Of a DNA stretch of 64,000 nt, positions 22,981 to 39,816 are shown piece after piece. Origin of the DNA: Methylocapsa aurea (GTDB lineage Bacteria > Pseudomonadota > Alphaproteobacteria > Rhizobiales > Beijerinckiaceae). Made by a program: the position numbers and the translations under genes. The notes below the pieces were generated by a model. The model ran no database searches, was not told the DNA's origin, and was given only the letters and a program-made list of their open reading frames with translations. The number at the start of each line of letters is the position of its first letter. Positions within the stretch are counted from its first letter, which is position 1. The DNA lies in NCBI RefSeq assembly GCF_000746085.1, contig NZ_JQKO01000009.1, positions 1 through 64,000 on the forward strand. The letters are read 5' to 3'.

Positions 22981-24417
22981 ATGCCGAATCTGATTGCCCT
23001 GGAATGGCGCCGGCTGCGCCGCGAAACCTTATACTGGATCGCGCTCTGCCTTTGCGTCGGCGGGCTTTGGTATGGGCTGAGCAACGGCCTCGCCTGGCGG
23101 CAGTTTCAACAGGACGGCATAAGACGCGCCGCCGCCATTGGTGCCGAGGGGATCGCCACGGCCAAAGCCAAGGCCGCCGAGCTTAACGCCGATGCTTCGA
23201 AGCAGATCGATTTCTGGGGCGACCCGCGCTCTGGGATCGGGTTTGAAGGCGCCTATCTGCGGCTCTACGATTGTTTATCTCCGGCTCCCCTTGCCGCGCT
23301 CGCAGTTGGTCAAAGCGATCTTCTGCCCTATTGCGTCCAGGTGAAAACCGGACCCTGGCCCAATTTCGATCAAAGCGACGAATGGGAAAACCCGGTCCGG
23401 CTCCTGCTTGGACGCTTCGACTGCGCCTTCGCGATCATCTATTTGCTTCCCCTGCTGGCCTTGCTTGTCTCGTTCAATCTCTTCTCGCGGGAGCGCGAAC
23501 AGGGGACGCTTCCCTTGCTGCTCTCTTATCCCGTCTCGGCGCGGCTTTGGCTCGCCGTGTGTTTTCTGCTGCGCGCGACGGTCTTTCTTGGCGTCGTGCT
23601 CGCGGCGCTGACGGCGGAGCTGTTCATCGCCGGGTTCGCCGCCTCCGCCCCTGGCGCGACGAGCGATTTGCTGTTCTGGCTGGCCATCATCCTCGCCTAT
23701 GGCGGATTTTGGTTCGCGCTCGCCTTTGCCGTCAACGCCGGCGGCCGGAGCTCGGAAACAAATGCTCTGATTCTGGTCGGTTGCTGGCTTGCGCTGGTGA
23801 TTCTCCTTCCGGCCGGCCTCAATCTCGCGCTGAAGCAGATTTATCCGCTGCCCTCTCGCGTCGAATTCATCGATACCTTGCGCGCCGCCTCCGCGCAGGC
23901 CGAGAAAATGGGGAGCAGCCTGCTTCAGAAATATCTGCACGACCATCCCGATCTTGCCCCCGGCGACAAGAAAGAGAATGAAAATCAATTCATCGAGACG
24001 CTGATCGCCGTCAATGCGGAGACCGAGCGACTCCTCGACCCCGCGAAGCGCCGATTTCGGGACCAGAACAATCGGCAGGTGGAGGCGATCGAGCGGCTGA
24101 GCGCCCTGTCGCCCGCCATCGTCTTTCAACGAGCGGCCAATGCCCTGAGCGGAAATGATCAGACCCGCCACATGCGCTTCATCGACGCGGTCGAGGCGCA
24201 TCGGGATGAGGTCAAGCGCTTTCTCGATCCGAGTTTTGCGAGCGAGGCGCCGTTCACAGACTATGACGGCGTCCCGGCTTTTGCATACGAGCAACGGACC
24301 AACTTGCAGAATAATGCGCAGGGCGCGCTCGGGGCGCTTCTTCTCTTGCTAACGCCAAGCGCCCTTCTCGCCGCCTGGGGCTGGCGGCGCTTGCGACGGC
24401 CTTTATTGGAGCGCTGA
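22981..24417 (+). CDS. ABC-2 type permease with DUF3526-like architecture (second of two)
   Basis: A 478-residue membrane protein, 16 bases after its paralogue. It has the same layout: an N-terminal segment, a soluble loop, a block of membrane helices around 145-290, a charged soluble part around 300-440, and a C-terminal helix. It shares the REREQGTLP motif. It completes an ATPase-permease-permease operon of 3.6 kb. No periplasmic binding protein or adaptor is present, as expected for an ABC-2 exporter. Confidence 0.85.
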   Translation: MPNLIALEWRRLRRETLYWIALCLCVGGLWYGLSNGLAWRQFQQDGIRRAAAIGAEGIATAKAKAAELNADASKQIDFWGDPRSGIGFEGAYLRLYDCLSPAPLAALAVGQSDLLPYCVQVKTGPWPNFDQSDEWENPVRLLLGRFDCAFAIIYLLPLLALLVSFNLFSREREQGTLPLLLSYPVSARLWLAVCFLLRATVFLGVVLAALTAELFIAGFAASAPGATSDLLFWLAIILAYGGFWFALAFAVNAGGRSSETNALILVGCWLALVILLPAGLNLALKQIYPLPSRVEFIDTLRAASAQAEKMGSSLLQKYLHDHPDLAPGDKKENENQFIETLIAVNAETERLLDPAKRRFRDQNNRQVEAIERLSALSPAIVFQRAANALSGNDQTRHMRFIDAVEAHRDEVKRFLDPSFASEAPFTDYDGVPAFAYEQRTNLQNNAQGALGALLLLLTPSALLAAWGWRRLRRPLLER

Positions 24418-24612
24418 GCGCAGCCCAACCCGGAGCTCAAGAATTGCGAATAGCGCGGCGCGAAATTCGGCCCACGCATTTTTGTCCATGAAGCCAGATT
24501 CCCTTCTCATCGCGCCGGATAGAATTAAAGTTCTAAAGCAAAAGCCACACTTACGGGATAAGTTGCCGTTCGAGGCGACTCAAGCGTAGGATGGCGCATC
24601 GGAGAAAAATCC

Positions 24613-25191
24613 ATGGGCGAAACTCTTGAGCGTCCGCAACGACCCGCGCGCCATAGGCTCGATGTCGACGCCTATTATAAGATGGCCGAGGCTGGCATCC
24701 TCAACCGCGAGGAGCGCGTCGAGCTGATCGACGGGGAAATCATCGACATGAACCCGATCGGCAGCCCACATGCCGCAATCGTGAAGCGGCTAAACCGGCT
24801 CGTCGCCCGCGCTGCCGCCGACGGAATCGTCCTCGTCAGCGTGCAGGACCCGCTGCGGCTCGACGCCTATAACGAACCTCAACCCGATCTCATGCTGCTG
24901 CGGCCGCGCGCCGACGATTATCGGGCGAGCCATCCAAGTGCGGCCGATGTCCTCCTTCTGGTGGAAATCTCCGACAGTTCGCTGACCTATGACCGCGGCC
25001 GCAAGCTCGCGCTCTACGCACAATTTGGCGTGCCCGAGGTCTGGATCGTCGATCTTGCCGGCGCGGCGGTCGAGGTTTTCCGCCAGCTGAAGGAGGGCGC
25101 CTATTCTTCGCGCGAGCGGCGGTCTGGCGGGGCGCTGGCGCCGCTGCTCGTCCCCAGCGTCGCGATCGACGTCGCCGCGCTGCTCGCGTGA
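24613..25191 (+). CDS. Uma2 family putative restriction-type endonuclease
   Basis: A 192-residue protein of the Uma2/DUF820 family, which has a PD-(D/E)XK nuclease fold. Typical pieces are the N-terminal YYKMAEAGIL, EERVELIDGEI, PQPDLMLLRPR, LLVEISDSS, YDRGRKLALYA and VPEVWIVDL. Family members are common as single genes in cyanobacteria and proteobacteria, and their physiological target is mostly unknown. It has its own gap upstream (24418-24612) and is not obviously part of the transporter operon. Confidence 0.88.
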   Translation: MGETLERPQRPARHRLDVDAYYKMAEAGILNREERVELIDGEIIDMNPIGSPHAAIVKRLNRLVARAAADGIVLVSVQDPLRLDAYNEPQPDLMLLRPRADDYRASHPSAADVLLLVEISDSSLTYDRGRKLALYAQFGVPEVWIVDLAGAAVEVFRQLKEGAYSSRERRSGGALAPLLVPSVAIDVAALLA

Positions 25192-25329
25192 GACCCGACC
25201 CAGCTTACCTTGGGACTATACACCTAGCGCCGCGGCCGCGGCTCTCATAGGCAGGCAATTCGCCGTCTTCATCGTCCGGATGGCGACGACGGCGATCAGG
25301 CTCGCCCTCGTCGACAGCCGCCGGATCGC

Positions 25330-25488
25330 CTAGGAGAGGCCCGCCGCGCCCTGGTCCTCCGGCAGCGCGAGGGCGTCGACCTTCAGCTTCGCGGCGGCGC
25401 CCTGGGCGGAGGCCGCTTCAGCGGCCGACAGTGCGCCGAGAACGATGATCGAGGCGAGCCGCAACAGGCGGCGGCGTATTTTCATCAT
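25330..25488 (-). CDS. Small exported protein, possibly frameshifted
   Basis: Two in-frame ATGs (25488, 25485) follow a strong AAAGGA site. They open a 52-residue frame with a clear signal peptide (basic MKIRRRLL, hydrophobic IIVLGAL, cleavage after AASAQ). The mature part is only about 22 residues and ends at TAG 25330. In the +2 frame an acidic stretch ending in DGELPAYESRGRGAR continues to about 25200. The original protein may therefore have been longer and lost its frame. I do not recognise a family. Confidence 0.4.
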   Translation of the reverse strand: MMKIRRRLLRLASIIVLGALSAAEAASAQGAAAKLKVDALALPEDQGAAGLS

Positions 25489-25589
25489 GACCGTCCTTTG
25501 AGCGAGGACGCGGACATAATTGGCGATGATGCATGGTCGGCCCGGCCGGCTCCGCGTCGCTGCAATCCTGCAACGCCGACGCGGTTCAA

Positions 25590-26921
25590 TCAGCGGCTTG
25601 TTCGAAGTTGACCCTTGTGGGCGTAGCCTAACAGCAGCACCGAGATCGCCGCCAGCAATGTCACCCCTCCCGCAAGGAACAGGACGGCCCTCGGCGTAAA
25701 CTCCCAGGCCAGCAACAGGCCGGCGAGCGCCGGGCCGACGATGGCGCCAACGCGCCCTACAGCCATCGTCCATCCGAGCCCCGAGGCGCGCAGAGCGCTC
25801 GGATAATAGTACGCGACCAGGGGCGGCAAGCACATCTGCGCTCCTATGCAGAAGAACCCCGCCAGAAAGATCACGCCGGTCACCACAGCTCCGGACGGCG
25901 GCGCGACGCCGATCAGCCCAACGGAAACCGCGGCGATGACATAGGCTGGCGCGAGCACCTTGTAGATGTCGAATTTATCCGTCAGCGACGAGAACAGCAG
26001 AGCGCCGAGCATGCCGCCGCCGCTCAACACCACGCCACCCATGACGGCCATGCTGATGGTGACTCCAGCCTGATTGAGGATCAGCGGCAGCCAGCTCGTA
26101 AGGAATATGGACGTGACCAGACTGAGAAAGCTGATGAGCCACAACAGGATCGTGCCCGCCGTGCGCCCCTCCGCAAACAGCTGTCCCACCGAAAGGCCTA
26201 TGATTCCACGATCGCGCCGCTTGAAGTCATAGGTCTCGACCGAAGGGGCTTCGATGTTGATCTGGGACAGGTTTCTGCCGACCCGCGCGCCCGACGACGG
26301 CCGGGTCACGAGATAGGAGAAGGACTCCGGCACAAACGCCCAGGCGATCGGTAGGACGACGAGAGGCAGCAGGCCGCCGAGGTAAAAGATCGTGCGCCAG
26401 CCATAATGTGGCAGCAGTTGCGCCGTCGCCATGCCGCCGAGGACCGAACCAAGCGGCACGCCGCAAAACATCGCCGTCACAAAGGTCGAGCGCCGGCGTT
26501 TGGGCATATATTCGGAGACGATCGCGAAGAGATTCGGCAAGGCCGCCCCAAGACCCACGCCCGCGACGAACCGCAGCACGATCAGCTGGTTTAGCGTTCC
26601 GGAGGCGATGGTGAGGAGAGAGGCGGCGCTCACCACGGCGAAAGCGCCGAGCATGACCGTCTTGCGACCGTAAAGATCGCCGAGCGGGCCTTGCAGGAGG
26701 ACGCCGGCCAGCGAGCCAAACGACCCCGCGCCGAAGACGACGCCGAACTGCGCGATCGGAATGCCGAATTCGCGCGCGACGTCGGGAGCGGCAAAAGCCA
26801 TCATCTGACTGTCGAAGCCGTCGATCATTGCGAGGAAGCCGCAAATGGCGACGATGAAATATTGGCGAACGCCTATACGGCTGCGGTCGATCAGACTCTC
26901 GATGGCGACAGTCACGTTCAT
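25590..26921 (-). CDS. MFS transporter of the aromatic acid:H+ symporter family
   Basis: A 443-residue, 12-helix major facilitator. It starts with the AAHS-type segment IDGFDSQMMAFAAP, has GPLGDLYGRKTVM between helices 2 and 3, and SEYMPKRRRST near the middle. The family (PcaK, BenK, MhpT) moves aromatic acids with protons. It is the last gene of the leftward aromatic cluster, 83 bases after the GST gene. It could take up a precursor or pass out an aromatic product; the sequence does not decide the direction. Confidence 0.88.
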   Translation of the reverse strand: MNVTVAIESLIDRSRIGVRQYFIVAICGFLAMIDGFDSQMMAFAAPDVAREFGIPIAQFGVVFGAGSFGSLAGVLLQGPLGDLYGRKTVMLGAFAVVSAASLLTIASGTLNQLIVLRFVAGVGLGAALPNLFAIVSEYMPKRRRSTFVTAMFCGVPLGSVLGGMATAQLLPHYGWRTIFYLGGLLPLVVLPIAWAFVPESFSYLVTRPSSGARVGRNLSQINIEAPSVETYDFKRRDRGIIGLSVGQLFAEGRTAGTILLWLISFLSLVTSIFLTSWLPLILNQAGVTISMAVMGGVVLSGGGMLGALLFSSLTDKFDIYKVLAPAYVIAAVSVGLIGVAPPSGAVVTGVIFLAGFFCIGAQMCLPPLVAYYYPSALRASGLGWTMAVGRVGAIVGPALAGLLLAWEFTPRAVLFLAGGVTLLAAISVLLLGYAHKGQLRTSR

Positions 26922-27004
26922 TGGCTCTCCTTGCCTGGCGTTCTATGAAGCGCGCGTTCTTCGCACGGAAGATGCGATGGCGCGTCGCTCCGAGGCTGTG
27001 AAAT

Positions 27005-28069
27005 TCACGCCGAGGCGCCAGCCAGGGGCTCGCGCCCGGACGGCTCGCTCCAATCCACGATTGGGCCAATCGGGACAATCCCCGACGGCGTCAGCTCGGG
27101 AAAATTGCGGATGTAGTCGAGCTTGTGCTGCGCGAAGTCAGTGGAATCGCGAAAGGCTGGAATCTGGTACAGATCGCGCGCATAGCCCCATAGATGCGGA
27201 TAGTCCACGAGGCGCTTCAAATTGGCTCTGAAGATGGGATTGTAGGCGACGTCGAAGCGCGCCAGCGTCACCCATAGGCGGATATCGCTCTGCGTCAGAT
27301 CGGCGCCGAAAAGGAAACGCCGGCTCGCCAGGCGTTCGTCCAGAAACGCCAGCCTGTCGAACAGCCGCGTCGCGGCCGACTCATATTCCGCCTGACTTTT
27401 CGAAAGACCCACAGCGTAGACGCCGAAATTGACGTCTGCGTGAAGGCTGGCGTCGAGATCTTCGATCTCCTCGCGCAGCGACGCGGGATAGAGGTCGAAC
27501 CGCGAATTCGCGTGGGCGCGAAACTGTGTCGCAACGTCGACGAGTATGTCGCCGGAATTATTGCTGACAATCGTCCCTGTCCGGCGGTCCCATAGAACCG
27601 GGACGCTGACATGTCCGTCAAAATCGGCGTCCGTCGCTTCGTAGGCCTCACGCAGCAGCAGAAATCCATTCACCGGATCGGCGCCGCGCCTTGCGCGAAA
27701 CGCCCAGCCGCGTCCGTCGCGCTCGTCGTCGACGAATGAAAAGGTGATGATTTTCGCAAGGTCGAGGACATTCAAAGCGATTAGAACGCGGTGGCAAAAG
27801 GGGCAGCCTTTGCCGAGATAGAGATGATACCGCCCGGGCTCCGGCGCAAACGCCGCCGAGTCAGCTGAGCCGATTCTGTTTCTGAAACTAGTCAGCGAAT
27901 TGAACGCCGCGACGGCGTCCTGCGAATTCGCGCGCTGCATCTTTTTGAGCTTGTCGGCGCTTGCATAGCGGCCGAAGACCTCGTAATCGACCGCGCTCGC
28001 ATAGGCGCCGCGCTCGCCATTCGCGTCGATGAGCTCCAACCGGGAAGCCGCCGATCCTTCCGCGCTCAC
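27005..28069 (-). CDS. Glutathione transferase of the glutathionyl-hydroquinone reductase (Xi/ECM4) type
   Basis: A 354-residue protein starting with a GTG at 28069 that overlaps the methyltransferase stop (GTGA). The thioredoxin-fold N-terminus holds the catalytic cysteine in CPFC (89-92), where the family usually has CPWA. The all-alpha C-terminal domain ends with the family-like segment HLWGYARDLYQIPAF. These enzymes reduce glutathionyl-hydroquinones and so recycle quinones. That fits a cluster predicted to make a quinone. The second cysteine at position 92 is unusual and could alter the chemistry. Confidence 0.82.
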   Translation of the reverse strand: MSAEGSAASRLELIDANGERGAYASAVDYEVFGRYASADKLKKMQRANSQDAVAAFNSLTSFRNRIGSADSAAFAPEPGRYHLYLGKGCPFCHRVLIALNVLDLAKIITFSFVDDERDGRGWAFRARRGADPVNGFLLLREAYEATDADFDGHVSVPVLWDRRTGTIVSNNSGDILVDVATQFRAHANSRFDLYPASLREEIEDLDASLHADVNFGVYAVGLSKSQAEYESAATRLFDRLAFLDERLASRRFLFGADLTQSDIRLWVTLARFDVAYNPIFRANLKRLVDYPHLWGYARDLYQIPAFRDSTDFAQHKLDYIRNFPELTPSGIVPIGPIVDWSEPSGREPLAGASA

Positions 28070-29112
28070 GGCTTGACGCCTTCGATGATGCTTTGCACGG
28101 CTTTCGTCGGATAGACGTTGGAGATTTTGAGCCCGGCCGCGGCGTAGAGGCGCTCATAGTCCTCAAGGGTGCGCTCGCGGCCTCCTTGGCTCATCACCAG
28201 CATTTCCAGATCGAGCAGCTTGGCGAAATGAGGAACGTTGGGCGGCGTCAGCACAGCCTCGATCAGCAACAGTTTCCCGCCCGAAGGCAGCGCCGCCGCC
28301 GCGTTCCTGATGAACCGGATGGATCGCTCGTCGTCCCAGTCATGAATGATATGCTTCAGAATATAGACGTCGCCGCCCGGGACCACCGACTCAAGGCCGT
28401 CGCCGGCGACGACTTCCGTTCGCTGGAGAATGCCTGTGTCGGCAAGCAGCTGCCTCGCCCCCTCGATGGCGTGGGGAAGTTCGAACAGAACGCCTTTCGC
28501 GTCCGGATTGGCTTTCAAGATGGCGCTCAGCAACAGGCCATGGCCGCCGCCGACGTCGACGATCGTCCGCGCGCCGGAGAAATCATAAGCGTCGACCACC
28601 GCCTGCGCCGCAAGCTCGCTCAGGCTCGTCATCGCCTCATTGACGACCTCGGCCTCGAACGAGCGCGTGCTGATATATTCGAACGCCGTCTCTCCCGCGA
28701 CATGTTCGAACGCGCTTTGGCCGGTTCTTACGCTGTGGACGATGTCGCCCCAGGCCCGCCACGAGATGTCGACGCCCATCAGACGCGCGAAGCCGCGGAT
28801 CGAGCCCGGCTCGTTGCGGCGCAGGGTCTCGCTATAGGCGTTATTGCGGAATCGCCGCCCCTCGCCTTCCACGAATATGCCGACGCTGGTCAGGCCTCGC
28901 AGCAGCCTGTAAAGCGAATCGGGATCCGCGTTGACTTCTCTCGCCAGTTCATCGACCGTCCGCTCTCGCTCTCCGACATAATCCGCGACGCCGAGTTCAG
29001 CGGCGGCGTAGATCGCCTGGGACACCCATTTGCCTGTCAACAACTGAAATACAGCGACCGCCGGCGGCGAGCCGGACTCGATTATTTTCGCTTCGGCGTT
29101 TGCTTCGCTCAT
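28066..29112 (-). CDS. SAM-dependent O-methyltransferase, aromatic type
   Basis: The frame is open from 29223, but ATG 29112 follows GAGGGA at good spacing and gives 348 residues. It has a winged-helix dimerisation part (about 20-100), then a Rossmann domain with the SAM motif DVGGGHG (186-192) and the catalytic-type histidine H257 in KHIIHDWDD. This is the plant-COMT/hydroxyneurosporene-methyltransferase family, which methylates phenolic hydroxyls. It would tailor the aromatic product of this cluster. The stop overlaps the start of the GST gene. Confidence 0.9.
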   Translation of the reverse strand: MSEANAEAKIIESGSPPAVAVFQLLTGKWVSQAIYAAAELGVADYVGERERTVDELAREVNADPDSLYRLLRGLTSVGIFVEGEGRRFRNNAYSETLRRNEPGSIRGFARLMGVDISWRAWGDIVHSVRTGQSAFEHVAGETAFEYISTRSFEAEVVNEAMTSLSELAAQAVVDAYDFSGARTIVDVGGGHGLLLSAILKANPDAKGVLFELPHAIEGARQLLADTGILQRTEVVAGDGLESVVPGGDVYILKHIIHDWDDERSIRFIRNAAAALPSGGKLLLIEAVLTPPNVPHFAKLLDLEMLVMSQGGRERTLEDYERLYAAAGLKISNVYPTKAVQSIIEGVKP

Positions 29113-29158
29113 CAGATCCCTCGTCGTCTTCATTCGTGGCGTTGCGCGCAAGGCGTCG

Positions 29159-29998
29159 TCACGGCCCGCGCGGATAGCTGCCGAGAAAGCGCACCGCTCG
29201 GCAATGCAGCGCGAGGCTGACAAGCGCGTCCCTCACCTGCGGATCGACGGCATGGCCCTCGCAATCGATCAGGAAATGATAGCGCCCGAGGCCCTCCCCG
29301 CTCGGCCGCGATTCGACTCGCGTCACCGGCACTTCGCGGCTGGCGAATTCGTCAAGGACATGGACGAGCCAGCCCGGACGATCGCCGCTGGCCATGGCGA
29401 CGATCGAGGTCCGATCCGCGCCGGTGCGCGGCGCCAACGGCCCTGGACGCCGCAAAAGAACGAAGCGCGTCACCACATTGGCGCGATCGCCGATGTCGGA
29501 GGCGAGCACCTCGAGGCCGTAGCGCTCCGCGGCGACCACGGCGGCGATCGCGGCGATGTCGCGGCCGCCCCTTTGCGCGATCTCGAGCGCCGCCGCCGCC
29601 GTGGAGGGAGTACTCTCGAACTGGGCCGCCGGCAGCCATTCCCGCTGCCAGCGCCGGCATTGCCCATGGGCATGGGAATGGGTGAAGACCTGTTTGATGG
29701 TGTGGACGCGCGCGCCGGGGTTGCCCATGAGCGCGAACTCCACCTTCAGATTGGCTTCCGCCACGATTTGCAGGGGATCGTCCGAGACGAACTCCCGCAG
29801 GGTCGCAGGCACGCCGCCCTCAACCGAGTTTTCAAGCGGCAGCATCGCGGCGTCGACGGCGCCGCTGCGGACGGCTCCGAGCGCGGCGGACGCGCTCGGA
29901 TAAGCTACGTATTCCGCGCCCGCCGTCTCCGGAAGGCTGCGTAAGGCAGCTTCCGTGAATGTGGCTTCGGGGCCAAGATAGCCATAGCGCGGGCGCAT
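29159..29998 (-). CDS. pheA: Prephenate dehydratase with ACT domain
   Basis: A 279-residue monofunctional enzyme turning prephenate into phenylpyruvate. It starts YGYLGPEATFTEAAL, has PLENSVEGGV (54-63), the catalytic TRF (177-179), and a C-terminal ACT domain with the phenylalanine-binding ESRP (229-232). The form resembles actinobacterial PheA more than typical alphaproteobacterial ones. It sits inside a secondary-metabolite operon, overlapping the SnoaL-like gene by ATGA. It is therefore probably a dedicated supply of phenylpyruvate to the A-T-TE synthetase, not the housekeeping copy. The intact ACT motif suggests it may still respond to phenylalanine. Confidence 0.93.
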   Translation of the reverse strand: MRPRYGYLGPEATFTEAALRSLPETAGAEYVAYPSASAALGAVRSGAVDAAMLPLENSVEGGVPATLREFVSDDPLQIVAEANLKVEFALMGNPGARVHTIKQVFTHSHAHGQCRRWQREWLPAAQFESTPSTAAAALEIAQRGGRDIAAIAAVVAAERYGLEVLASDIGDRANVVTRFVLLRRPGPLAPRTGADRTSIVAMASGDRPGWLVHVLDEFASREVPVTRVESRPSGEGLGRYHFLIDCEGHAVDPQVRDALVSLALHCRAVRFLGSYPRGP

Positions 29999-30399
29999 CA
30001 GCCATCCCCCGTGACGAGACGGATCATTTCAACAGTGTCGAAATAATCCTCGAACGTCGCAGCCTTGCCGCCGGAGAACGTCCAGGAATGCACGAAGCGC
30101 AGGACCGCGCTAGCGCCACTGACCCCCGTGACCCTGCGCGAGCCGAAGACGACGATGCGGTCCCCGGATTCTATGAACTCCTCCGGACTAAGCCTTATCT
30201 CGGCGTAGTGCGTCGGCACATGCCGGATAAAGGCGACGACTTCGTCATGACCTCTCTTGGTCCCGCCGAGGCCCAACACATTCATTCCGTCCGGATGAGT
30301 CCAGGCCACGTCATCGGCAAGCGCGGCGAGAACCCCAGGGAGGTCGCGCCGGTGGAACGCTTCATACGACGCGCGTACGGTTTCGATATTCGTCGGCAT
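29998..30399 (-). CDS. SnoaL-like / NTF2-fold protein
   Basis: A 133-residue protein of the SnoaL-like polyketide cyclase and NTF2 superfamily. Typical features are the N-terminal VRASYEAFHRRD, the DDVAWTHP strand and the FVHSWTFSGGKA segment. Some members are cyclases or isomerases in aromatic product pathways and others are binding proteins, so the fold alone does not give the reaction. It is translationally coupled to prephenate dehydratase, which argues for a step in the same pathway. Confidence 0.8.
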   Translation of the reverse strand: MPTNIETVRASYEAFHRRDLPGVLAALADDVAWTHPDGMNVLGLGGTKRGHDEVVAFIRHVPTHYAEIRLSPEEFIESGDRIVVFGSRRVTGVSGASAVLRFVHSWTFSGGKAATFEDYFDTVEMIRLVTGDG

Positions 30400-30442
30400 G
30401 CGATGAGCGCTCCTTCGATAGGTTTTCCGGCAAATTTACGTC

Positions 30443-31384
30443 CTAGGCGGCGGAGGATTGCAGGACGGCTCCTGGAAAATGAGCCTCGATCGTCCGCCGT
30501 ACGCCATCCTTCCAGCCAACCGCGCAATCGCCGATCAGGGCCCGACGCTTGGCGTTGTCGAAGGCGTAGGTCTCGCGCGTGACGGCGCTCCGATCGAAGC
30601 GCGCCTCAACCCCGGTGATTTCCGAGATATATTCCAGACATTCCTTGATGCTGACAGCCTCGTCGCCACCCCAGTTCACGATGAGCGCCGGCGTCGAGGC
30701 GACGTCCCAGAGCAGCGGAACCTGACGCGCCAGATCGTCCGTGTGGATCAGCGAAGCCCAGTTCTGCCCCTCCAGCGGGATAGGAATCGCCTTGCCCGCA
30801 AGAAGCTGGCGGTAGAGAAGGACCGGTACGCCGCCATGCCCGTAGGGTCCGTAGGCGACGTTGAGGCGGGCGATGACGGTCGGCAGGCCGAGCGTCGCCG
30901 CGAAGGCCCGCACGGCGCCCTCCGCGGAGATCTTGACGATCGGATAGGCTGGCAGCCATTGCGCGACGCCGTCGATCGGATCCGACTCGGTATAGGCGTG
31001 ATCCAGCGTCTGCCGGGCGTAAAGAGCGCCCGTCGAGACATAGATAAACGCCTCGGCTCGCCTGCAGTGAGTCGCGATCTGGCCGACGGCGACCGTGTTG
31101 ATCTCGATCGCTTTGTTGAAGTCGCCATCCTCTCCGCGATGCACGGCGGAATGCAGCACATGGGTGAAATCATCCGGCAGGCCGTCGAGGCTGTCGTGGC
31201 CCATGCTCCAGCGCCAGGTCCTGACGCCTTTGGCGCGAAGCTCCTCCTCCGCGCGAGCGTCGCCGAAGCGGCCGATGGCCCACACCTCGTTGTCAGCCGC
31301 CAGCACTTCGGCGATCGGCCGCGCAACCTGCCCCGTCGCGCCGGTTATCAGTATTTTCCTCGGCTTCGCGCCAGTTCCGGTCAT
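30443..31384 (-). CDS. NAD(P)-dependent epimerase/dehydratase (extended SDR)
   Basis: A 313-residue extended short-chain dehydrogenase. It has the nucleotide motif GATGQVA near the N-terminus, the YVSTGALYA strand, and the catalytic YxxxK in YPIVK. The C-terminal substrate domain is typical of nucleoside-sugar or small-molecule epimerases and reductases. The substrate cannot be read from sequence. Within the cluster a ketoreduction or dehydration of the dimeric arylpyruvate product is plausible. Confidence 0.85.
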
Positions 31385-31423
31385 AGCATTGTCTTCCGGT
31401 TACGATTCTGATTGATCGCGCGT

Positions 31424-34222
31424 CTATTTCCCGCCGAGCGCGCGGTCGAGTTCGGCGCGCAGGAGAGCCTGGAAGGAGGCTACGTGGTTTGAGCCCATGA
31501 GTGTGTAGTGCTCGCCCGCCGTCTCAACGTAGCGATTGGGCGAGCGCGAAAAATCGTCCCAGCGCCGAAGCTCGTTGTTCAGCCAGTCCTCCTTGGTTCC
31601 CCGCAGCGGAATCGCGTAGAAAACGACAAGCGACTCCACCGCGCCGGAGGGAACGTAGGAGCGGCCCATGGTTAACAGCGACTGCGCGAGCCCCGCCCAT
31701 GCGCGAAACTTGGCGACGTCGATATCGAGTTCGATCAACCGCGCCGGGGGCGCGACGCCGACGAGATATTCGCTGACGTCCCGCTGCGGCGACTCGGCGC
31801 GCAGCTTTGCGGGCAGCTCCTCCGACTGCTTCTTGTCGATCAGCGAGAGAAAGAAGGCGAGATTTACGGCGCCCTCGATCGGATCGAGTTCGTCCATCCG
31901 ATATTTGATATGAGGCGGGAGGTTGAAGACGCCGATGAAATCGACGCGCTCGCCCTGCGCCTCCAGAACCTTGGCGATCTCGAAAGCGACCGCGCCGCCA
32001 TAGGAATACCCCGCGATCGCATAGGGTCCGTTGGGCTGACGCCGGCGAATCGCTTCGACGTAGACGCCCACCATTTCGTCGAAGCGCGTGAAGAACGCCT
32101 CCCCCTCATTGAAGCCCCTCGCGCGCAGGGCGTAGAACGGCCGCTCGTTGACGAAATATTTGGCCAGATTGACGAAAACTAGAACCTCGCCGACGCCCGG
32201 ATGCACGCAGAACAGTGGCGTCTTGTCGCCCGCGAGCTGTAGGGGCACGATTGGATCATAGGCGCCCTCCGCGCCGTCGCCCGACGCGATCCGGGCGGCG
32301 AGCGCGCGGACGGATGGATTTTGCAGGATGGCGACGATCGGCAGGCCGGCAACGCGCAGGCGCTGTTCGAGATGACGCTTGAGCTTTAAAATATCGAGCG
32401 ATGTGCCGCCGAGATCGAAGAAGCTCGCCGTGGCGCTGATGCTCTCGGGCGCGGCGTTGAACATCTCCGCATAGATTTCGGCGATGACGATCTCGGTCTC
32501 TGTTTCGGCTGGAGAAAATCCACCGAGCTGCCGGCTTGTCGCCTCGGCCGCGTGGGCTTCATGCGCGGCAAGTTCGCCTGCCTCCAGACGCTTGCGCAGG
32601 ACGGAGCGCTGGATCTTGCCAAGACTGGTCTTCGGAAAAGCATCCTTCGGCAAGGGCAGAATCAGCGTCGGGCGAAAGCCCCAAAGCGCAATTGCGGTGT
32701 TGCGAATCGCGATGATCAAACGATGCAGCTCCGGCTCGTCGCTCAGCGGGAAGGCCGGCGCGAAAGCGACCGCGAGTTGCTCCGTGTCGGCGCCGGGGGG
32801 ACGCGTCGGAAAGGCTGCCGCAAAGGAGCGTTCGACGCCGTCGAGTTGCTCCAGCGCGGTCTCGAGCTCATGACTGAAATAGTTGACGCCGCTGACGATG
32901 ATGCTGTCCTTGCTTCGTCCAACGAGGCTCAGCCGGCCATTCTCGAGGCGGCCAAGATCGCCGCTGCGGAACCATCCGTCGCTCGTGAAAGCGGCGCGGG
33001 TCGCCTCCTCGTTGTTGTAATAGCCGCGGAAAATCATTGGCCCGCGCAGCTGCAATTCGCCGGGCTCGCCGGCGCGCGCGGGGACGTCCTGATCGTCGGC
33101 GATCCGGATCTCGAGTCCCGTGATCGGCAAGCCAAGAGAGGCGAATTCCCGCCCCGCGTCCGCGTCCGGGAATTCGCGGGAATAGACGGAGCCGGCGCAG
33201 GTCTCGGTCATTCCGAAAGCGGGCCAGATCGCCGTGCGAGCGAGCCCATAGGGCGCAAGCAAGCTGAGAAAACGCCGGGCGGTTTCGGTCACCACGGCCT
33301 CGCCGCCGGAGACGATATGCCGGAGGCTGGACAAATCGAGCGACAAGGGTTTGGCGCGCGGCGATTCCAGCGCCGCGACGATCTGCCCCAAGAGAAAATT
33401 CGGCGTGAAGGTCATGGTGACGCGGCGACGATCGATGAGCCGCAGAAACGAGGTCGGGTCGGCGAGGATCGTTGCGGCGTCGGCGTGAAGCTGCGTCGCG
33501 CCGACATAGAGGGGCAGCAGATGCGCCTCCAGAAGCGCGGCCACGTGATCGAAAGAGATCCAGTTGAGCGTGACGTCGGCCGCAGTGAGGTTCTGGCGTT
33601 CCGTCTTGCCGGCCAGCGACGCCAGAATATTGGCGTGGGTCAGTCCGACCGCCTTTGAATTGCCGGTGGAGCCGGAGGTCAGCATGAGGACCGCAATATC
33701 CTCCGGCTCGGCCTTGTGCGCGCGCTCCTCCGCGGCGGATGCCCGCAGGGAGTCGAGTTCGGCGACCTCAAGGCCGGCGATATCCGGCAGGCCTTCGCGG
33801 AGCCTCTCGCTCACGACGACAAGCGGACCCGCGAGCAGGCTCTGAATATGTGAAAGCTGCGTCGCCCAACGCCCCGGGTCTCCGTGGATTGGCGCAAGCG
33901 GACAAGGTATGTAGCCGCCAAGGATCGACGCCCAGAAGGCCGGGATGAAATCGCCCGCGCCTTCGAGTAGAAGAACGATCCGGTCGCCGGGACGGCGGCC
34001 CAGCGCCGACAGGCCCGCAGAGATGCGCTGCGCCTCGTCGAGCAGCTCGGGATATGAGCGGGCGACGTCGGCGCCCTCGATATCCGCGGAGATCAGCCGC
34101 AGGCCTGACTCCGGGCGCCATTGCGCCGCGCGCAACAAAAGCTGCGCCAGCGTGGCCGGCCGTCCAGCGCGGGCCTCCAGCTCGGACAACGCAAGCGGGG
34201 GATGAGCGAGAGCTATTGTCAT
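31424..34222 (-). CDS. A-T-TE arylpyruvate-dimerising synthetase (atromentin/ralfuranone synthetase family)
   Basis: This 932-residue protein has three domains: adenylation (about 20-550; LTSGSTGNSK at 181-190, A10 lysine in LGKIQR), carrier (PPant serine S608 in LGGTSLD) and thioesterase (about 660-932; nucleophile S740 in GYSYGG). The length, the order and segments such as VFNLPPHIKYRMDELD match fungal atromentin synthetases and bacterial RalA. These activate two arylpyruvates and join them to a terphenylquinone or furanone without a condensation domain. The operon contains prephenate dehydratase, so phenylpyruvate is the likely substrate (polyporic acid or a ralfuranone-type product). The serine nucleophile is reported as the quinone-type state in some studies, but I cannot verify that here. 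Confidence 0.88.
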   Translation of the reverse strand: MTIALAHPPLALSELEARAGRPATLAQLLLRAAQWRPESGLRLISADIEGADVARSYPELLDEAQRISAGLSALGRRPGDRIVLLLEGAGDFIPAFWASILGGYIPCPLAPIHGDPGRWATQLSHIQSLLAGPLVVVSERLREGLPDIAGLEVAELDSLRASAAEERAHKAEPEDIAVLMLTSGSTGNSKAVGLTHANILASLAGKTERQNLTAADVTLNWISFDHVAALLEAHLLPLYVGATQLHADAATILADPTSFLRLIDRRRVTMTFTPNFLLGQIVAALESPRAKPLSLDLSSLRHIVSGGEAVVTETARRFLSLLAPYGLARTAIWPAFGMTETCAGSVYSREFPDADAGREFASLGLPITGLEIRIADDQDVPARAGEPGELQLRGPMIFRGYYNNEEATRAAFTSDGWFRSGDLGRLENGRLSLVGRSKDSIIVSGVNYFSHELETALEQLDGVERSFAAAFPTRPPGADTEQLAVAFAPAFPLSDEPELHRLIIAIRNTAIALWGFRPTLILPLPKDAFPKTSLGKIQRSVLRKRLEAGELAAHEAHAAEATSRQLGGFSPAETETEIVIAEIYAEMFNAAPESISATASFFDLGGTSLDILKLKRHLEQRLRVAGLPIVAILQNPSVRALAARIASGDGAEGAYDPIVPLQLAGDKTPLFCVHPGVGEVLVFVNLAKYFVNERPFYALRARGFNEGEAFFTRFDEMVGVYVEAIRRRQPNGPYAIAGYSYGGAVAFEIAKVLEAQGERVDFIGVFNLPPHIKYRMDELDPIEGAVNLAFFLSLIDKKQSEELPAKLRAESPQRDVSEYLVGVAPPARLIELDIDVAKFRAWAGLAQSLLTMGRSYVPSGAVESLVVFYAIPLRGTKEDWLNNELRRWDDFSRSPNRYVETAGEHYTLMGSNHVASFQALLRAELDRALGGK

Positions 34223-34424
34223 TCCGGACCCTCAGACAGGTGACAGCGCGCGTTCATGGCAAGCATCAACAGCGCTTTCGGCATGTGTTTTGGCTATACA
34301 TAACTACCTTATTGCGTATATAAATAATATTATACGACAGTTTTTATAGTAATTGTTGCTTTTTATCGCCTTTTATAAAGTATAACTTTCCTTTTTCGCG
34401 GCTCGCTCTTCAAAACCTTGAACT
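34223..34424. promoter_or_regulatory. AT-rich intergenic island with an inverted repeat
   Basis: About 110 bases (34285-34395) are very AT-rich in a GC-rich region. An inverted repeat CGTATA (34315-34320) and TATACG (34331-34336) lies about 95 bases upstream of the A-T-TE start. A separate promoter for the lower operon is likely. The LysR protein encoded beside the cluster could bind here. Confidence 0.5.
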
Positions 34425-36209
34425 TCATCCGGCATGGGCCAGGCGGCCATGACCAGAGGCGCGGACGCCGAGCAGCGCCTCCAGCGCGTCCTGCAGTGCG
34501 CGCGCCGCATCGGCGACAGACGTTTTTGACCGGAACGCCACATGGCCGTCGGGCCGCACCAGCACGGCCCCGTCCGGAGCGAGGCCATAGAGCGCGATCA
34601 ACGTCTTCTCCTCGGAACGTTCGATGAAATCCCCGCCGAGCCCAACCGTGTAGCCCGTGAGCGGAATAGCTCCGCCTTCTCCGATGGACCTCGCCGCATC
34701 GCGCCAGGCTCGCCCCTCCCGACCCGCCAAGACGACGAAGCCGTCGCCAAAGAGATCCAACGTCGAAAGCTCGCCGCCGCCGGGAGACGTCAGCCACAGA
34801 TGCGGCGCTCGCGCGCCAGGGTGCGCCGTCATATAATAATCGCTGATGGTGGAGCGTTCCGGTTCGGTTCCATCGGGGATGACCGCCGCCGACTCATAGA
34901 TTGAGCCGAATTGTTGGCCATGCGAATAGAACTGCTCCCGCTGGCGCGGAATGGCCGCGGCGACGCGGTCGCGTGCGGCCTGTCCTTCCAGCCCCGGCTT
35001 TTCGATGTCCGCGAGGCTGCCTGGATCGCGCAGCAGCCATCCGGTTTCCTCCATGCGATGCGTGTTCTCGAGACACTGCCGGCCGTTAAACTCCGCCACC
35101 GGCTTGCGCTCGGCCTCATAGGTGTCGAGCAAGGCGTCGCCGGCCTGCCCGCGCAGCACCAGAACAAGCTTCCACACGAGGTTGACGCTGTCCTGCACGC
35201 CCGAATTCATTCCGAATCCGCCGTGCGGCGGAAAGCGGTGGGCGGCGTCACCCGCCAGAAATACTCGCCCCGCGCGCCAAGCGTCGGAAACCGCCTGGTC
35301 ATGCTTCCAGGGCAAAATGCTTTCGATCTCGATGCCGACGTCGCTGTCGCCGACGGCTTTGCGGATGATGTCGCGGCAGCGGTCGGCGGTATAGCTTTCC
35401 GCGTCCTCCCCCGGCTTGGGGTCGAAATTATACAGCCAGCTGTCCGAGCGCCGGCGCCAGGTGAAGGCGCCCTGCGTGTCGGGGTTGGCCACCCAGAAGA
35501 GCCCAAAATTGCGGCCGCGTCGATGCTTTTCAAGGTCGGCGCGGAACTGCACGCTGATCGAATCGCCGAACGCGCCATATCCGCTCTCGCCGATCCCGAG
35601 CGCGCCTCGCGTCGGGCTGCGCACGCCGTCGCAGGCGATCACATAGCGGGCGCGAACCAATTCGCTGCGGCCCGACGCTTCATCCTCGATGACGATCGAA
35701 ACCCCCTCGTCATCCTGGCCGACGACGCTGGCGCGCCGCGCCAATTCGACGCGGACGCTCGGATATCGCGAGACCTCCCGAAAAAGAATCGGCTCATAGA
35801 GATCCTGACCGCAGAAGCCTGGCGGCTCGGGCGAATATGACGCCCATTTCTTTTGGTCTTCCGGCGACAACCCGAACTCGATCCGACCAAGTTCGATCCC
35901 GCTCAGCCGCGTCACCCAGGCGAAGCCGGACGGGCCAACGCCTGGCGGAAGGTCGCCTCGACCGACAGAGCGGATCTCATCGGATATGTCCCACCGCCGG
36001 AATATCTCCATGGTGCGGGCGTGAATGCCGCCGGCCTTGGGATGACGCGACAGACCCCCGCGCCTTTCGACAAGCAACGTGTTGACGCCGAGACGGCCGA
36101 GTTGGAGCGCCGACGAAAGCCCGACCGGACCGGCGCCGATAATTAACACCTCAAAGTCTCCAGTTTGCGGCGGCGTCTCTACAGGCGCTTCATGTGTCAT
36201 GCGTTTCAT
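34425..36209 (-). CDS. FAD-dependent aromatic hydroxylase (PheA/TfdB family)
   Basis: A 594-residue flavoprotein monooxygenase. It has the dinucleotide motif GAGPVGLSSA near residue 25, the CDGVRSPTR middle motif, and the GDAAHRFPPHGGFGMN segment that binds FAD ribityl. The extra C-terminal thioredoxin-like domain is that of phenol 2-monooxygenase relatives. It would hydroxylate an aromatic ring of the cluster product, using NAD(P)H and oxygen. It lies between the TonB receptor and the A-T-TE gene in the same direction. Confidence 0.9.
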   Translation of the reverse strand: MKRMTHEAPVETPPQTGDFEVLIIGAGPVGLSSALQLGRLGVNTLLVERRGGLSRHPKAGGIHARTMEIFRRWDISDEIRSVGRGDLPPGVGPSGFAWVTRLSGIELGRIEFGLSPEDQKKWASYSPEPPGFCGQDLYEPILFREVSRYPSVRVELARRASVVGQDDEGVSIVIEDEASGRSELVRARYVIACDGVRSPTRGALGIGESGYGAFGDSISVQFRADLEKHRRGRNFGLFWVANPDTQGAFTWRRRSDSWLYNFDPKPGEDAESYTADRCRDIIRKAVGDSDVGIEIESILPWKHDQAVSDAWRAGRVFLAGDAAHRFPPHGGFGMNSGVQDSVNLVWKLVLVLRGQAGDALLDTYEAERKPVAEFNGRQCLENTHRMEETGWLLRDPGSLADIEKPGLEGQAARDRVAAAIPRQREQFYSHGQQFGSIYESAAVIPDGTEPERSTISDYYMTAHPGARAPHLWLTSPGGGELSTLDLFGDGFVVLAGREGRAWRDAARSIGEGGAIPLTGYTVGLGGDFIERSEEKTLIALYGLAPDGAVLVRPDGHVAFRSKTSVADAARALQDALEALLGVRASGHGRLAHAG

Positions 36210-36246
36210 CCTTTACGCCGACTGGCGGCGATAGTTGTCGACGATC

Positions 36247-36266
36247 CCGGCCGCGCCCGCGGCCGG
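36247..36266. other. Hairpin between the TonB receptor and hydroxylase genes
   Basis: A perfect 8-base stem CCGGCCGC/GCGGCCGG with a 4-base loop lies in the 115-base gap after the receptor gene. It lacks a T-run, so it may slow transcription or stabilise mRNA ends, not terminate outright. Confidence 0.45.
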
Positions 36267-36324
36267 TCGGGTGAAAGAGCGGAGCGAAGCGGTCCCGTCG
36301 TGAACTTCGCCTCGCCTACGCCGG

Positions 36325-38493
36325 TCAGAAGCGGTACGAGGCCCCGCCATACACGCCGACGCCATCGCCCGGATAGAAGACGGCGGCGTCCCTCCCCCGA
36401 GCGTTGAAGATCGGCGTCACAGCCGATGTATATTTCACATTCGCCAGGTTGCGGGCCTCCACATAGGCTTCCCACCCCTGCTTGGGTTGAGCGAAGCCGA
36501 TCTTCGCGCCCACAATGGCGTAGGGCTTCGCGTAGAACGAATTCGCGTAGTCGATCGGATAGGCGTTGAAGACGGACTCTACATTGACGCCGGCATAGAA
36601 GCCTTCGGCGTTCCTGTATTGCAGCTCCGCGCGATACAGGTGCTCAGGCAGACCCGGCAGCCTGTTTGCGCCGAATGTCGGGTCGCCGGCAAAATGGAAA
36701 TCGTTCCAGGTGTAGACCTGCCGCAGGATAAGCTGGTGCTGCGGATCTTCGAGCGTGCGCTGCACTAAATTGTCGCCGCCTAAATCCGCCCCGAAAAATG
36801 TCTGCCTCCCTGCCGCCGACTGCCACAAGACTGTGTCCAGGCCGAGCTCGACGCCTTGATGGCGCGTCGGCGACGCGTTGGAGGTCGCCGTCAGGGTCGA
36901 TCCCGGAAGCGCGACGGTCAGCAGCTCATTGTTGACCCATGAATAATAGTAAGACGCGCTCCACCGAAAAATGCCCGCCTTGCCGCGCGTTCCAACCTCG
37001 GCCGTCGTCGCGGTCTGCTCTTCAAGATCAAGGCTTCGCAGCGAACTTGCCGGCAGCAGCAGCAGCGGATAGGACCAGTTCGTCGCCGGCTCGACGGTCC
37101 GGGTCACATTGGCGTAGACCTGCGCCTCGGGATTGATGTTGTAGCGCAACCCGACGCGCGGCGCATAATTGAGGTAGGTGCGGCCAAAATTGTTCTGCAC
37201 CGGGTAAATGATATTGCTCTGGCGATCCACATAGCTCAGGGCTAATCCAGTCGTCAGCCAGAGGTCCTTGATGGTCTCAAGGTCGTCGGTCGCAAGCAGG
37301 ACGGTGTCGCCGCCGCCGAGCTTGACGTTCTGGAGGAGAACGCCCTTGTTCACCGCGGCGGAGTGGCTGAACAGCTGAAAGCTCGGATTGAGGGCCGTCG
37401 AATTAAGCAGCGAGATCGCCAAATTGCTCTGATGTCCGAGGATCGCGTCGCTGCGAGAATATTTGACCGACGTGCTGATGTCGCTCGCCTCCCATTGCAC
37501 ATAGGGGCCGCCCGGGCCGTGATTTGGAAAGCTCTTGAACGCGGCGCCGAATTCGACCTTTGAATTTTGGTCGATCGTGAGCGTCGTCTTGTTGCCAATA
37601 AACGCGCTCCCCGGAATGACCTTGTACCAGTTGAAAGCCACAGCGGCGGCGTTCGCCTGTTGTGGATTCCGCTGAAGCTGGGCCTGCGTGATGGTCGAGG
37701 GAACCTGAAAGACGTCATGCGCGTAGCGGAAGTAGAAGCGCGTCTCCAGATCGGGGTTGATCTTATATCCGAAATTCGCGACGACCTTCTCGCTGCTCGC
37801 CTGCGACTGCACGCGGAAGCCGTCCTGCTGGAAGCCGGTCGCGCTGATATAATAGTCGAATGGTCCGGCGACGAGCCCCGAACTCACCTGCTCCCTCAGA
37901 TAACCGAAACTGCCCGCTTCGAACCGCGCCTGCGCCGGCGACGCGTTATATCCGGTGTAGGAAATGTAGTTAATGGCGCCGCCCAGCGTCAGGGCGCCTA
38001 GGTCGAAGGCGTTCCCGCCGCGAAAGACCTCGACGGACCGCGCGGCGAGCGGCTCGATCAATTCGACGGGCAGGCCCGTCGATGTCAGCAGCGGCAATCC
38101 GTCGAGCTGGATGAGAACGCCGGCGCCGAAGTTGTTCGGGCTTCTTTGCAGGCCTGAGCCGCGAATCGAAAATTTTACGGTGGCGTCGCTGCCCGACGTC
38201 GATTGGGCGTAGACCCCCGGCTCGAATGCGAACACATCGGATATGGTCGAGACGCGGCCCTGTTCGTAACTTTCCGCCGTGATGAGGCCGGCGCCGCCGG
38301 GCGTATTGGCGACGACCGTCGCTTCAGCCGGCGCCGCGGAAACCACGACATCCGCGATCGTCGTGGTGACCGTAGCCGGCTGGTCCGGCTCAGGAGGAGC
38401 GGTTTGCGCGCTCGCCGAGGCCGTCGCGAAGGCGCCGACCAGAAAAGGCGCCGCCCGTCCGAGCGCCCAAGATCTTGAATTTCGTGCTCGCAT
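36325..38493 (-). CDS. TonB-dependent outer-membrane receptor
   Basis: A 722-residue receptor. It has a signal peptide (cleavage near ASASAQ), a TonB-box-like TTIADVVVSA stretch, a plug domain (about 55-180; ISDVFAFEPGVY, EVFRGGNAFDLG), and a C-terminal beta-barrel ending ..GVGVYGGASYRF with the terminal aromatic residue. It is closest in style to FecA/FpvA-like ferric-chelate receptors but lacks an STN domain. It is the first gene of the leftward aromatic cluster and is divergent from a LysR gene. Its likely ligand is the metal complex of the cluster product, which is inference. It could also import an unrelated aromatic compound. Confidence 0.9.
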   Translation of the reverse strand: MRARNSRSWALGRAAPFLVGAFATASASAQTAPPEPDQPATVTTTIADVVVSAAPAEATVVANTPGGAGLITAESYEQGRVSTISDVFAFEPGVYAQSTSGSDATVKFSIRGSGLQRSPNNFGAGVLIQLDGLPLLTSTGLPVELIEPLAARSVEVFRGGNAFDLGALTLGGAINYISYTGYNASPAQARFEAGSFGYLREQVSSGLVAGPFDYYISATGFQQDGFRVQSQASSEKVVANFGYKINPDLETRFYFRYAHDVFQVPSTITQAQLQRNPQQANAAAVAFNWYKVIPGSAFIGNKTTLTIDQNSKVEFGAAFKSFPNHGPGGPYVQWEASDISTSVKYSRSDAILGHQSNLAISLLNSTALNPSFQLFSHSAAVNKGVLLQNVKLGGGDTVLLATDDLETIKDLWLTTGLALSYVDRQSNIIYPVQNNFGRTYLNYAPRVGLRYNINPEAQVYANVTRTVEPATNWSYPLLLLPASSLRSLDLEEQTATTAEVGTRGKAGIFRWSASYYYSWVNNELLTVALPGSTLTATSNASPTRHQGVELGLDTVLWQSAAGRQTFFGADLGGDNLVQRTLEDPQHQLILRQVYTWNDFHFAGDPTFGANRLPGLPEHLYRAELQYRNAEGFYAGVNVESVFNAYPIDYANSFYAKPYAIVGAKIGFAQPKQGWEAYVEARNLANVKYTSAVTPIFNARGRDAAVFYPGDGVGVYGGASYRF

Positions 38494-38847
38494 GTGACTG
38501 TCCCCGCTCGCTTGCTCTACGGATCCGAACGCGTCGGATCCGCGCTGTCTGTCCCGGCTCCGGCCATCCGCGCCCGACCATGTGGATGTTTTCCGGCGCG
38601 AAATAGGAGACTGAATTCTCTTTGAAATTTTTATTGTCTATACAGTCGACAGATTTTATGACTTATTGTAAAGATCTCGCACTGCAACGCTGCGTTGCGT
38701 TATGCGTCGGTTGTTGAGGGTCCGTCAGGAAATGGCGCCTTTTCCCGAGACGATAGGCGGCCGCGCGAGTTCACAACCTCCGGCGCATTGAAGCAACGTC
38801 ACGAGCGTTGCAATGCAGCAACAGATGCGCCGCCAGGAGCCACCCGC
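38494..38847. promoter_or_regulatory. Divergent TonB receptor/LysR control region with paired palindromes
   Basis: Two inverted repeats share the same half-sites: GCAACG-N3-CGTTGC at 38684-38698 and GCAACG-N7-CGTTGC at 38793-38811. Near the receptor start, the palindrome CGGATCCG occurs twice (38520-38527, 38535-38542). An AT-rich stretch at 38610-38680 fits promoters. The repeats are good candidates for the operator of the LysR protein encoded next door. Confidence 0.6.
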
Positions 38848-39816
38848 TTGCCCGCATTGAGCATTGACGATCTCTCCGACTTCTACATCTTTGCGGCGAT
38901 CGTGGAGCGGGGGGGCGTGGCGCCCGCGGGCCGGGCGCTTGGACTCACCAAAAGCCGTCTCAGCCGCAGGCTTGCGGCGCTTGAGAAGCGCTACGGCGTG
39001 CAACTCGCACACCGGTCGCCCCGCCGCTTCGCACTGACGAGTCTCGGCCAGTCCTTTTACGATCGCTGCCGCGAGATGATCGATGTATCCGAAGATGCGC
39101 TGGCCTTTATCGCTCAGGCGCAGGGACAGCCGACGGGCATGCTTCGAATCAGCGCGCCGTCCCCGGTCGCAAACCTCTGGCTTGCGCCTCTCATTCCAAG
39201 TTTTCTCGAGCTCCACCCCGATATTCAGATCGAGGTCGACGCGCGCGACCGCTCACTTGACGTCATGGCCGACCGCATCGATCTAGCGATCCGGGTGCGG
39301 CCGATGCCACTGGACGATACCGATCTGATCAAACGGCGCCTCAGCCTCAGCCACAATATTCTGGTCGCCGCGCCTTCGTTTTTCGACAGGCACGGCCCCG
39401 TCGCGACGCCCGAGGATCTCAAGCGCGTTCCGTTGGTCGCTCTGCCGGCAGGGAATGGCAAAGCGACATGGCTGCTGCATCATCGGCGCGGGCAGACCTT
39501 CACGCTCACATTCACCCCGCGCCTCGCCACCTTCGAACTGGCCATCCTGCGGTCGGCCGCCGCGGCGGGCTCAGGCGTCGCCCTGCTGCCGACCCATTTT
39601 TGCAGAGCGCAGCTGGAAGAAGGTTCCCTCGCCGTCGTTCTTCCCGAATGGGAAGGGCCGGTCGCGGATATTCATGCCGCCTATCTTTCGCGTCGTGGCC
39701 TGTCATCGGGCGCGCGCGCGTTTCTGGATTTCCTGGTGGCCGAACTTCCGCGCGCCGATCCCACAGCAGAGCTGGCGCTCATCGAAGGCGGCGCGCGGGA
39801 GGCGCAGGATCCGTGA
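38848..39816 (+). CDS. LysR family transcriptional regulator
   Basis: The frame is open from 38695, but I prefer the TTG at 38848. It follows AGGAG at 8 bases, gives a normal 322 residues, and leaves the paired palindromes outside the gene. The helix-turn-helix lies in DLSDFYIFAAIVERGGVAPAGRALGL-type sequence (LTKSRLSRRLAALE), followed by the usual effector domain. It is divergent from the TonB receptor, so it probably controls the aromatic cluster. Its 3' end overlaps the convergent AraC gene by 38 bases. Confidence 0.9.
   Translation: MPALSIDDLSDFYIFAAIVERGGVAPAGRALGLTKSRLSRRLAALEKRYGVQLAHRSPRRFALTSLGQSFYDRCREMIDVSEDALAFIAQAQGQPTGMLRISAPSPVANLWLAPLIPSFLELHPDIQIEVDARDRSLDVMADRIDLAIRVRPMPLDDTDLIKRRLSLSHNILVAAPSFFDRHGPVATPEDLKRVPLVALPAGNGKATWLLHHRRGQTFTLTFTPRLATFELAILRSAAAAGSGVALLPTHFCRAQLEEGSLAVVLPEWEGPVADIHAAYLSRRGLSSGARAFLDFLVAELPRADPTAELALIEGGAREAQDP

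Follow-up and report, generated by a model that had tools for sequence, protein, structure and literature searches.

Nine consecutive minus-strand genes of Methylocapsa aurea, reading in one direction from position 38493 down to 25590 of the first 64,000 nucleotides of contig NZ_JQKO01000009.1 (this whole stretch is called the window here), are very probably an operon for making p-terphenyls by the polyporic-acid (ter/ech) route, taken up by a host that is probably an alphaproteobacterial methanotroph. In the order of reading they encode a TonB-dependent receptor, an FAD aromatic hydroxylase, a 932-residue synthetase with adenylation, thiolation and thioesterase domains (A-T-TE), a short-chain dehydrogenase/reductase (SDR), a SnoaL-like protein, a prephenate dehydratase, an O-methyltransferase, a glutathione S-transferase (GST) and a major facilitator superfamily (MFS) transporter. 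An earlier reading of the letters alone (the sequence-only reading) had described such a run around the A-T-TE enzyme, and its open reading frames (ORFs) and families were confirmed at their coordinates by Pfam; the receptor, which ends the range, was absent from its gene list. The identities of the operon genes are far above chance (TerB, E 2e-135; TerC, E 4e-41; prephenate dehydratase, E 3.5e-48). With the listed starts, the gaps between consecutive genes range from -65 to 202 bases, and the -65 overlap of the methyltransferase with the prephenate dehydratase vanishes if the former begins at the likelier ATG at 29133 and not at 29223.

The synthetase and its TerB/TerC partners

The proposal that the central enzyme dimerises arylpyruvates held up. 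The protein encoded at 31424-34222 carries the Pfam AMP-binding, PP-binding and Thioesterase domains, and the phosphopantetheine-bearing Ser608, the thioesterase residues Ser740 and His905 and the A10 Lys536 are invariant in all 40 aligned rows. Full-length identity to the 39 relatives is 53-69%, and a TerB gene adjoins the synthetase gene in 38 of the 39. Position 5 of the specificity code, which we located by GrsA numbering, is Val304 in the window and Val or Ile in the alignment as a whole (23 and 17 of 40 rows, respectively). Among fungal enzymes, Val or Ile here is reported for users of phenylpyruvate and Asn for users of hydroxyphenylpyruvate, the position contributing to specificity without strictly fixing it (PMC10316625), and phenylpyruvate, the substrate that had been proposed, remains the probable one on that footing. 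EchA and DatA are reported to produce polyporic acid from phenylpyruvate (PMC9379647), and we infer that the window enzyme is a polyporic acid synthetase of the same EchA/TerA/DatA kind, to which BTH_II0204 would also belong. In a quick, midpoint-rooted tree, calculated without four proteins whose best match covered <85% of the query (L043, L048, L064 and L076), the window synthetase groups with two Burkholderia rows at a Shimodaira-Hasegawa-like approximate likelihood ratio (SH-aLRT) of 99.

The two genes directly downstream had been labelled SDR and SnoaL-like. Both labels are right as far as they go; more exactly, the products are homologues of TerB and TerC. The protein encoded at 30443-31384, of the NAD-dependent epimerase/SDR type, is 64% identical to TerB (6nd7; E 2.2e-135), the terfestatin/echoside reductase, and 80% identical over the aligned segment to its counterpart in Burkholderia ubonensis (L031). 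The protein encoded at 29998-30399 (SnoaL_2) is a dehydratase of the TerC/EchC type with an NTF2/SnoaL fold, matching TerC (6d34/6wf4; E 4.4e-41) and 3ebt (E 4.2e-65) and being 74% identical to the B. ubonensis TerC. EchB/EchC and TerB/TerC are described as a coupled reductase and dehydratase that convert polyporic acid into the 2′,3′,5′-trihydroxy core, so that the trihydroxyterphenyl arises through two collaborating bacterial enzymes, after which it reoxidises spontaneously (PMC12105029).

The relatives come from a scan of named genomes with TerB that confirmed 165, and all counts of relatives rest on the 80 of these that were listed. An A-T-TE gene lies beside TerB in 41 of them and in one Streptomyces plasmid locus (L111), giving 42 loci. 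The stretches examined around each reached 10-12 kb per side, some shortened by contig ends, so that counts of neighbouring genes are lower bounds. TerC is present in at least 31 of the 42, and 30 share the gene order A-T-TE, TerB, TerC; near 11 no TerC was found, and in L033 it lies on the opposite strand. A TerB tree rooted with distant TerB-like proteins places the window protein within the A-T-TE-linked clade (100/100), paired with Burkholderia (100/99); this pair and 25 Streptomyces rows make up a clade of 27 (99/97), with other actinobacteria outside. Of the 39 genome loci that lack an A-T-TE gene, the tree includes 8, together with L112, and leaves out 31; L076 was also dropped. All nine belong to a group of distant TerB-like proteins (37-48% identity) and branch outside the A-T-TE-linked clade, the nearest to it being L068 from Mycobacterium numidiamassiliense. 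Proteins of this group (L068, L072-L075, L077-L110 and L112) were rejected as pathway relatives, there being no A-T-TE gene in their stretches; an edge match to the synthetase in L100 (31% over 148 aa) was judged to be another AMP-binding enzyme.

RalA, the Ralstonia ralfuranone synthetase, has the same A-T-TE domain order and also uses phenylpyruvate but makes a furanone. The A-T-TE class is reported to yield furanones, butyrolactones and dioxolanones as well (PMC9047271), and an aryl furanone cluster of the ralfuranone/xenofuranone type, in which two phenylpyruvates would be joined into a furanone, has to be weighed. We regard it as highly improbable, because the enzyme's immediate downstream neighbours are homologues of TerB and TerC, which act on polyporic acid elsewhere, and because the synthetase itself groups with TerB-linked A-T-TE proteins and with those of Burkholderia. 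The 40 plasmid records listed of 350 included none that we recognised as a characterised furanone synthetase. The product first suggested was a hydroxylated, methylated terphenylquinone or furanone; the hydroxylated, methylated terphenyl is supported and the furanone is not.

Several side observations concern these three proteins. Eight Streptomyces loci (L050, L054, L056, L060-L063 and L065) form a distinct A-T-TE/TerB subfamily, with synthetases 53-55% identical to that of the window and no TerC match, and may make a different product. TerC homologues lie within ORFs of 467-600 aa in L037, L038, L040, L053, L064 and L071; in L037 the methyltransferase query returns an ORF of equal length (471 aa), which suggests a TerC-methyltransferase fusion, and PDB entry 22ow matches both TerC and the O-methyltransferase. 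On a Burkholderia stagnalis plasmid (L114), an A-T-TE gene is followed by a methyltransferase gene, and the annotation of that stretch shows neither a TerB nor a TerC gene. The A-T-TE query also matched two other minus-strand frames of the window, a large nonribosomal peptide synthetase (NRPS) gene at 7545-17711 (3388 aa, with four condensation, three AMP-binding and two PP-binding stretches) and a second long open frame at 3-6437 (2145 aa) that runs past the contig start.

Precursor supply and known systems

That the operon has a prephenate dehydratase of its own was also borne out. The gene at 29159-29998, of actinobacterial type, encodes Pfam PDT and ACT domains, matches model NF008865 above its cut-off and is the second copy in the genome, the other (33-36% identical) lying on contig C18. 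Its nearest matches are actinobacterial: 3mwb (E 7e-76), which we take to be an actinobacterial prephenate dehydratase, and actinobacterial-type copies at 43-52% identity. A linked copy is not unique to the window, since at least 3 of the 42 relatives (Streptomyces L032, L033 and L035) have one near the core as an additional copy, directly after TerC in L032 and L035, as in the window. Among 12 genomes searched, seven had one prephenate dehydratase match and five had two, the latter being these three Streptomyces (in one of which the other match, L130, is partial, E 1.1e-21), one genome whose further match is a weak fragment and one in which both copies are full and lie outside the cluster. 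Feedback regulation by phenylalanine goes with an ACT domain whose GALV and ESRP motifs are intact. The window copy keeps ESRP but has GWL in place of GAL, whereas the three Streptomyces cluster copies have LSRP in place of ESRP and SDL or GEL in place of GAL; the motifs vary outside clusters too (QSRP in L120 and L128; ESY in L001 and L127). The changed motif might relax phenylalanine feedback on the cluster enzyme. Our literature search found no work that brings together terphenyl, polyporic acid and prephenate dehydratase, and the sole match for terphenyl together with prephenate concerned pinosylvin.

The lack of an aminotransferase had been taken as a special trait of the window. No aromatic aminotransferase was found among the 20 flanking proteins scanned, a set that leaves some window ORFs outside it, and the sole aminotransferase found was SerC, for phosphoserine (48496-49578). 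However, the datA-E genes (PMC9379647) and the Burkholderia four-gene operon (PMC6481063), as described in these sources, list none either, which leaves the idea of a special trait unsupported.

Nor is the core undescribed, as the sequence-only reading had thought probable, since it is of the known ter/ech/dat/BTH_II0204-0207 type. Closest among the 42 is B. ubonensis, with the same order of A-T-TE, TerB, TerC and O-methyltransferase genes, 69, 80, 74 and 59% identical. A terphenyl operon of Burkholderia thailandensis, BTH_II0204-0207, was reportedly the subject of work by Biggins in 2011. Its genes are annotated as NRPS, dehydratase, isomerase and methyltransferase (PMC6481063), the content found in B. 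ubonensis, through which the B. thailandensis operon was compared here. The B. thailandensis terphenyl is reported to be bactericidal to Bacillus subtilis (PMC10272358), and its cluster to be among those most induced by low-dose "Tmp" (PMC7042699). Compared with the Burkholderia operon, the window adds the prephenate dehydratase between TerC and the O-methyltransferase, and the FAD hydroxylase, GST, MFS transporter, TonB receptor and a LysR regulator around the core. The Streptomyces terfestatin/echoside clusters (TerA-C, EchA-C) likewise combine an A-T-TE enzyme with a TerB-type reductase and a TerC-type dehydratase. Their products are glycosylated, the title of the echoside work reportedly naming p-terphenyl O-glucuronides, whereas no glycosyltransferase family was found among the 20 window proteins scanned. 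Finally, datA-C of Streptomyces sp. KIB-H1544 form a three-gene daturamycin core like that of the window; DatA makes polyporic acid, and the further genes, datD (bilirubin oxidase) and datE (oxidoreductase), include, as described there, no prephenate dehydratase or FAD aromatic hydroxylase, unlike the window (PMC9379647).

The early steps would run as follows. Prephenate dehydratase would convert prephenate into phenylpyruvate; the A-T-TE enzyme would adenylate phenylpyruvate, load it onto its own carrier and condense two units into polyporic acid; and the TerB/TerC pair would reduce and dehydrate this to 2′,3′,5′-trihydroxy-p-terphenyl. From phenylpyruvate onward, the scheme is based on close homologues that have been characterised in other organisms.

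Tailoring, transport and regulation

The genes around the core would act on this scaffold or move its product. The O-methyltransferase (28066-29223; Methyltransf_2, E 1.5e-47) is 59% identical over 351 aa to that of B. ubonensis, and a similar protein occurs in at least 8 of the 42 relatives. The FAD hydroxylase (34425-36209; FAD_binding_3 and Rng_hyd_C) has PDB matches at E 2.5e-77 to 1.8e-72. Its kin include 2-hydroxybiphenyl 3-monooxygenase (E 1.8e-72), and it is slightly closer to a 2,4-dichlorophenol 6-monooxygenase entry, RebC, RdmE and GrhO5; being similarly close to several different enzymes, it does not reveal its substrate by homology. Both enzymes would decorate the trihydroxy-p-terphenyl. 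The GST (27005-28069) is of the glutathionyl-hydroquinone-reductase type (GHR 4uss, E 1.3e-61; YqjG 3r3e, E 6.7e-59). Such reductases have their catalytic Cys in a CPWA-type motif; in the window protein it reads CPFC from Cys89, compared with CPWA in two congeners (L141, L142) and CPYA in a Nonomuraea protein (L132). The enzyme would undo glutathione addition to the quinones formed when the trihydroxy core reoxidises, a role made plausible by the spontaneity of that reoxidation and by the free ring position that, on chemical grounds, the quinone should have.

The MFS transporter (25590-26921) is nearest the aromatic acid/H+ symport (PcaK-like) group (TIGR00895, E 1.1e-97, under the curated cut-off), and the TonB-dependent receptor (36325-38493), the most upstream gene of the run, has Plug and beta-barrel Pfam domains and matches PqqU and siderophore models only far under cut-off. 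These two proteins would transport the product. Divergent from the run, on the plus strand, lies a LysR regulator gene (38695-39816; LysR_substrate, E 3.2e-40) that may regulate the operon; HTH_1 begins only at ORF residue 61, and the gene probably starts later than listed, at about 38870. What is said here of when and where methylation and hydroxylation occur, of what the GST and LysR do and of which way transport runs is purely inferred. Within the stretches examined, the FAD hydroxylase occurs in at least 2 of the 42 relatives (32% identity) and an MFS protein, partial at 125 aa, in at least one, whereas the GST and the TonB receptor were found in none. The best matches in 14 other genomes of the genus reach 39% for the receptor, 36% for the hydroxylase and 42% for the GST.

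These same genes admit a second account, in which the run is an aromatic uptake and degradation operon, with import by the TonB receptor and the PcaK-like transporter, catabolism by the hydroxylase, GST and SDR, and the synthetase as a passenger. The transporter's nearest group fits such a role, as do the distant TerB-like proteins (37-48%) of mycobacteria, Haliea and sphingomonads, which have no A-T-TE gene with them. Moreover, two plasmid relatives of the FAD hydroxylase, among the best-listed of 181, adjoin genes annotated as fumarylacetoacetate hydrolase and VOC, neighbours that suggest degradation. However, the window TerB belongs to the A-T-TE-linked clade and not with those distant proteins, the A-T-TE, TerB, TerC, prephenate dehydratase and O-methyltransferase genes form one tight run, and no ring-cleavage family was found among the ten operon-region proteins scanned, all of which make degradation a very unlikely function.

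A further idea keeps the p-terphenyl pathway and gives its product a purpose. With a feedback-relaxed prephenate dehydratase, a catechol-type p-terphenyl made by the FAD hydroxylase might be secreted, bind or reduce iron or copper, and be retaken as the complex through the operon's TonB receptor. We consider this a long shot. If true, it would be the first terphenyl metallophore, and copper is the metal needed for methane oxidation.

Host and origin

The host is probably an alphaproteobacterial methanotroph of a Methylocystis-like kind. Its genome carries a pmoCAB-type operon (L113; positions 1-3194 of contig C18, which also holds the housekeeping prephenate dehydratase). In a search against plasmids, pmoA matched one record, from Methylomagnum, at 65%. 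A megablast of 39000-63000 against plasmids hit 33 records, most of them from Pantoea (18), with two from Methylocella and one from Methylocapsa. The 16S model RF00177 matched nothing in the assembly, although it also recovered a match in only 9 of 14 control genomes. Of 397 genomes sampled from the family, 385 from the class and 398 from the phylum, in sets that overlap, only the organism's own has a TerB orthologue at E 1e-60. The p-terphenyl operon looks horizontally acquired, and an actinobacterial source is the likeliest reading. A compositional island was considered and rejected, since the GC content of 61-65% throughout the operon is not distinct; only weak repeats were found within 24400-40000. 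To the left of the operon, on the opposite strand, are genes for an ABC transporter ATPase and two permeases with DUF3526 (20827-24417).

Several points weigh against the p-terphenyl reading as set out here. The A-T-TE enzyme was likened to the characterised EchA, TerA and DatA by description and not by sequence, and the FAD hydroxylase, GST, TonB receptor and MFS transporter are tied to the pathway by position alone. In a tree without L130 and L131, the window prephenate dehydratase joins the Streptomyces cluster copies weakly (79/74; 82% of 200 bootstrap trees), and by identity it stands slightly closer to the housekeeping copies of actinobacteria (48-52%) than to the cluster ones (43-47%). 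Finally, the AmoA, AmoB and AmoC models give the pmo-type operon higher scores than the CH4_NH3mon_ox models do, so that methanotrophy is likely rather than shown.

The core chemistry is already known from Streptomyces and Burkholderia. What is new is the setting, a genome that also carries a pmoCAB-type operon, and the combination of the core with the extra genes, those for the FAD hydroxylase, the GST of hydroquinone-reductase type, the MFS transporter and the TonB receptor. In a literature search for a link between terphenyl biosynthesis and methanotrophs, the only match that mentions terphenyl is about fungi. With this operon, p-terphenyl operons of bacteria would reach beyond actinobacteria and Burkholderia to a probable methanotroph, and its hydroxylase, methyltransferase and quinone-repair GST are candidates for tailoring the polyporic-acid scaffold. 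The pattern in the window and in three Streptomyces loci also suggests that some terphenyl operons include an additional prephenate dehydratase to provide the phenylpyruvate they use.

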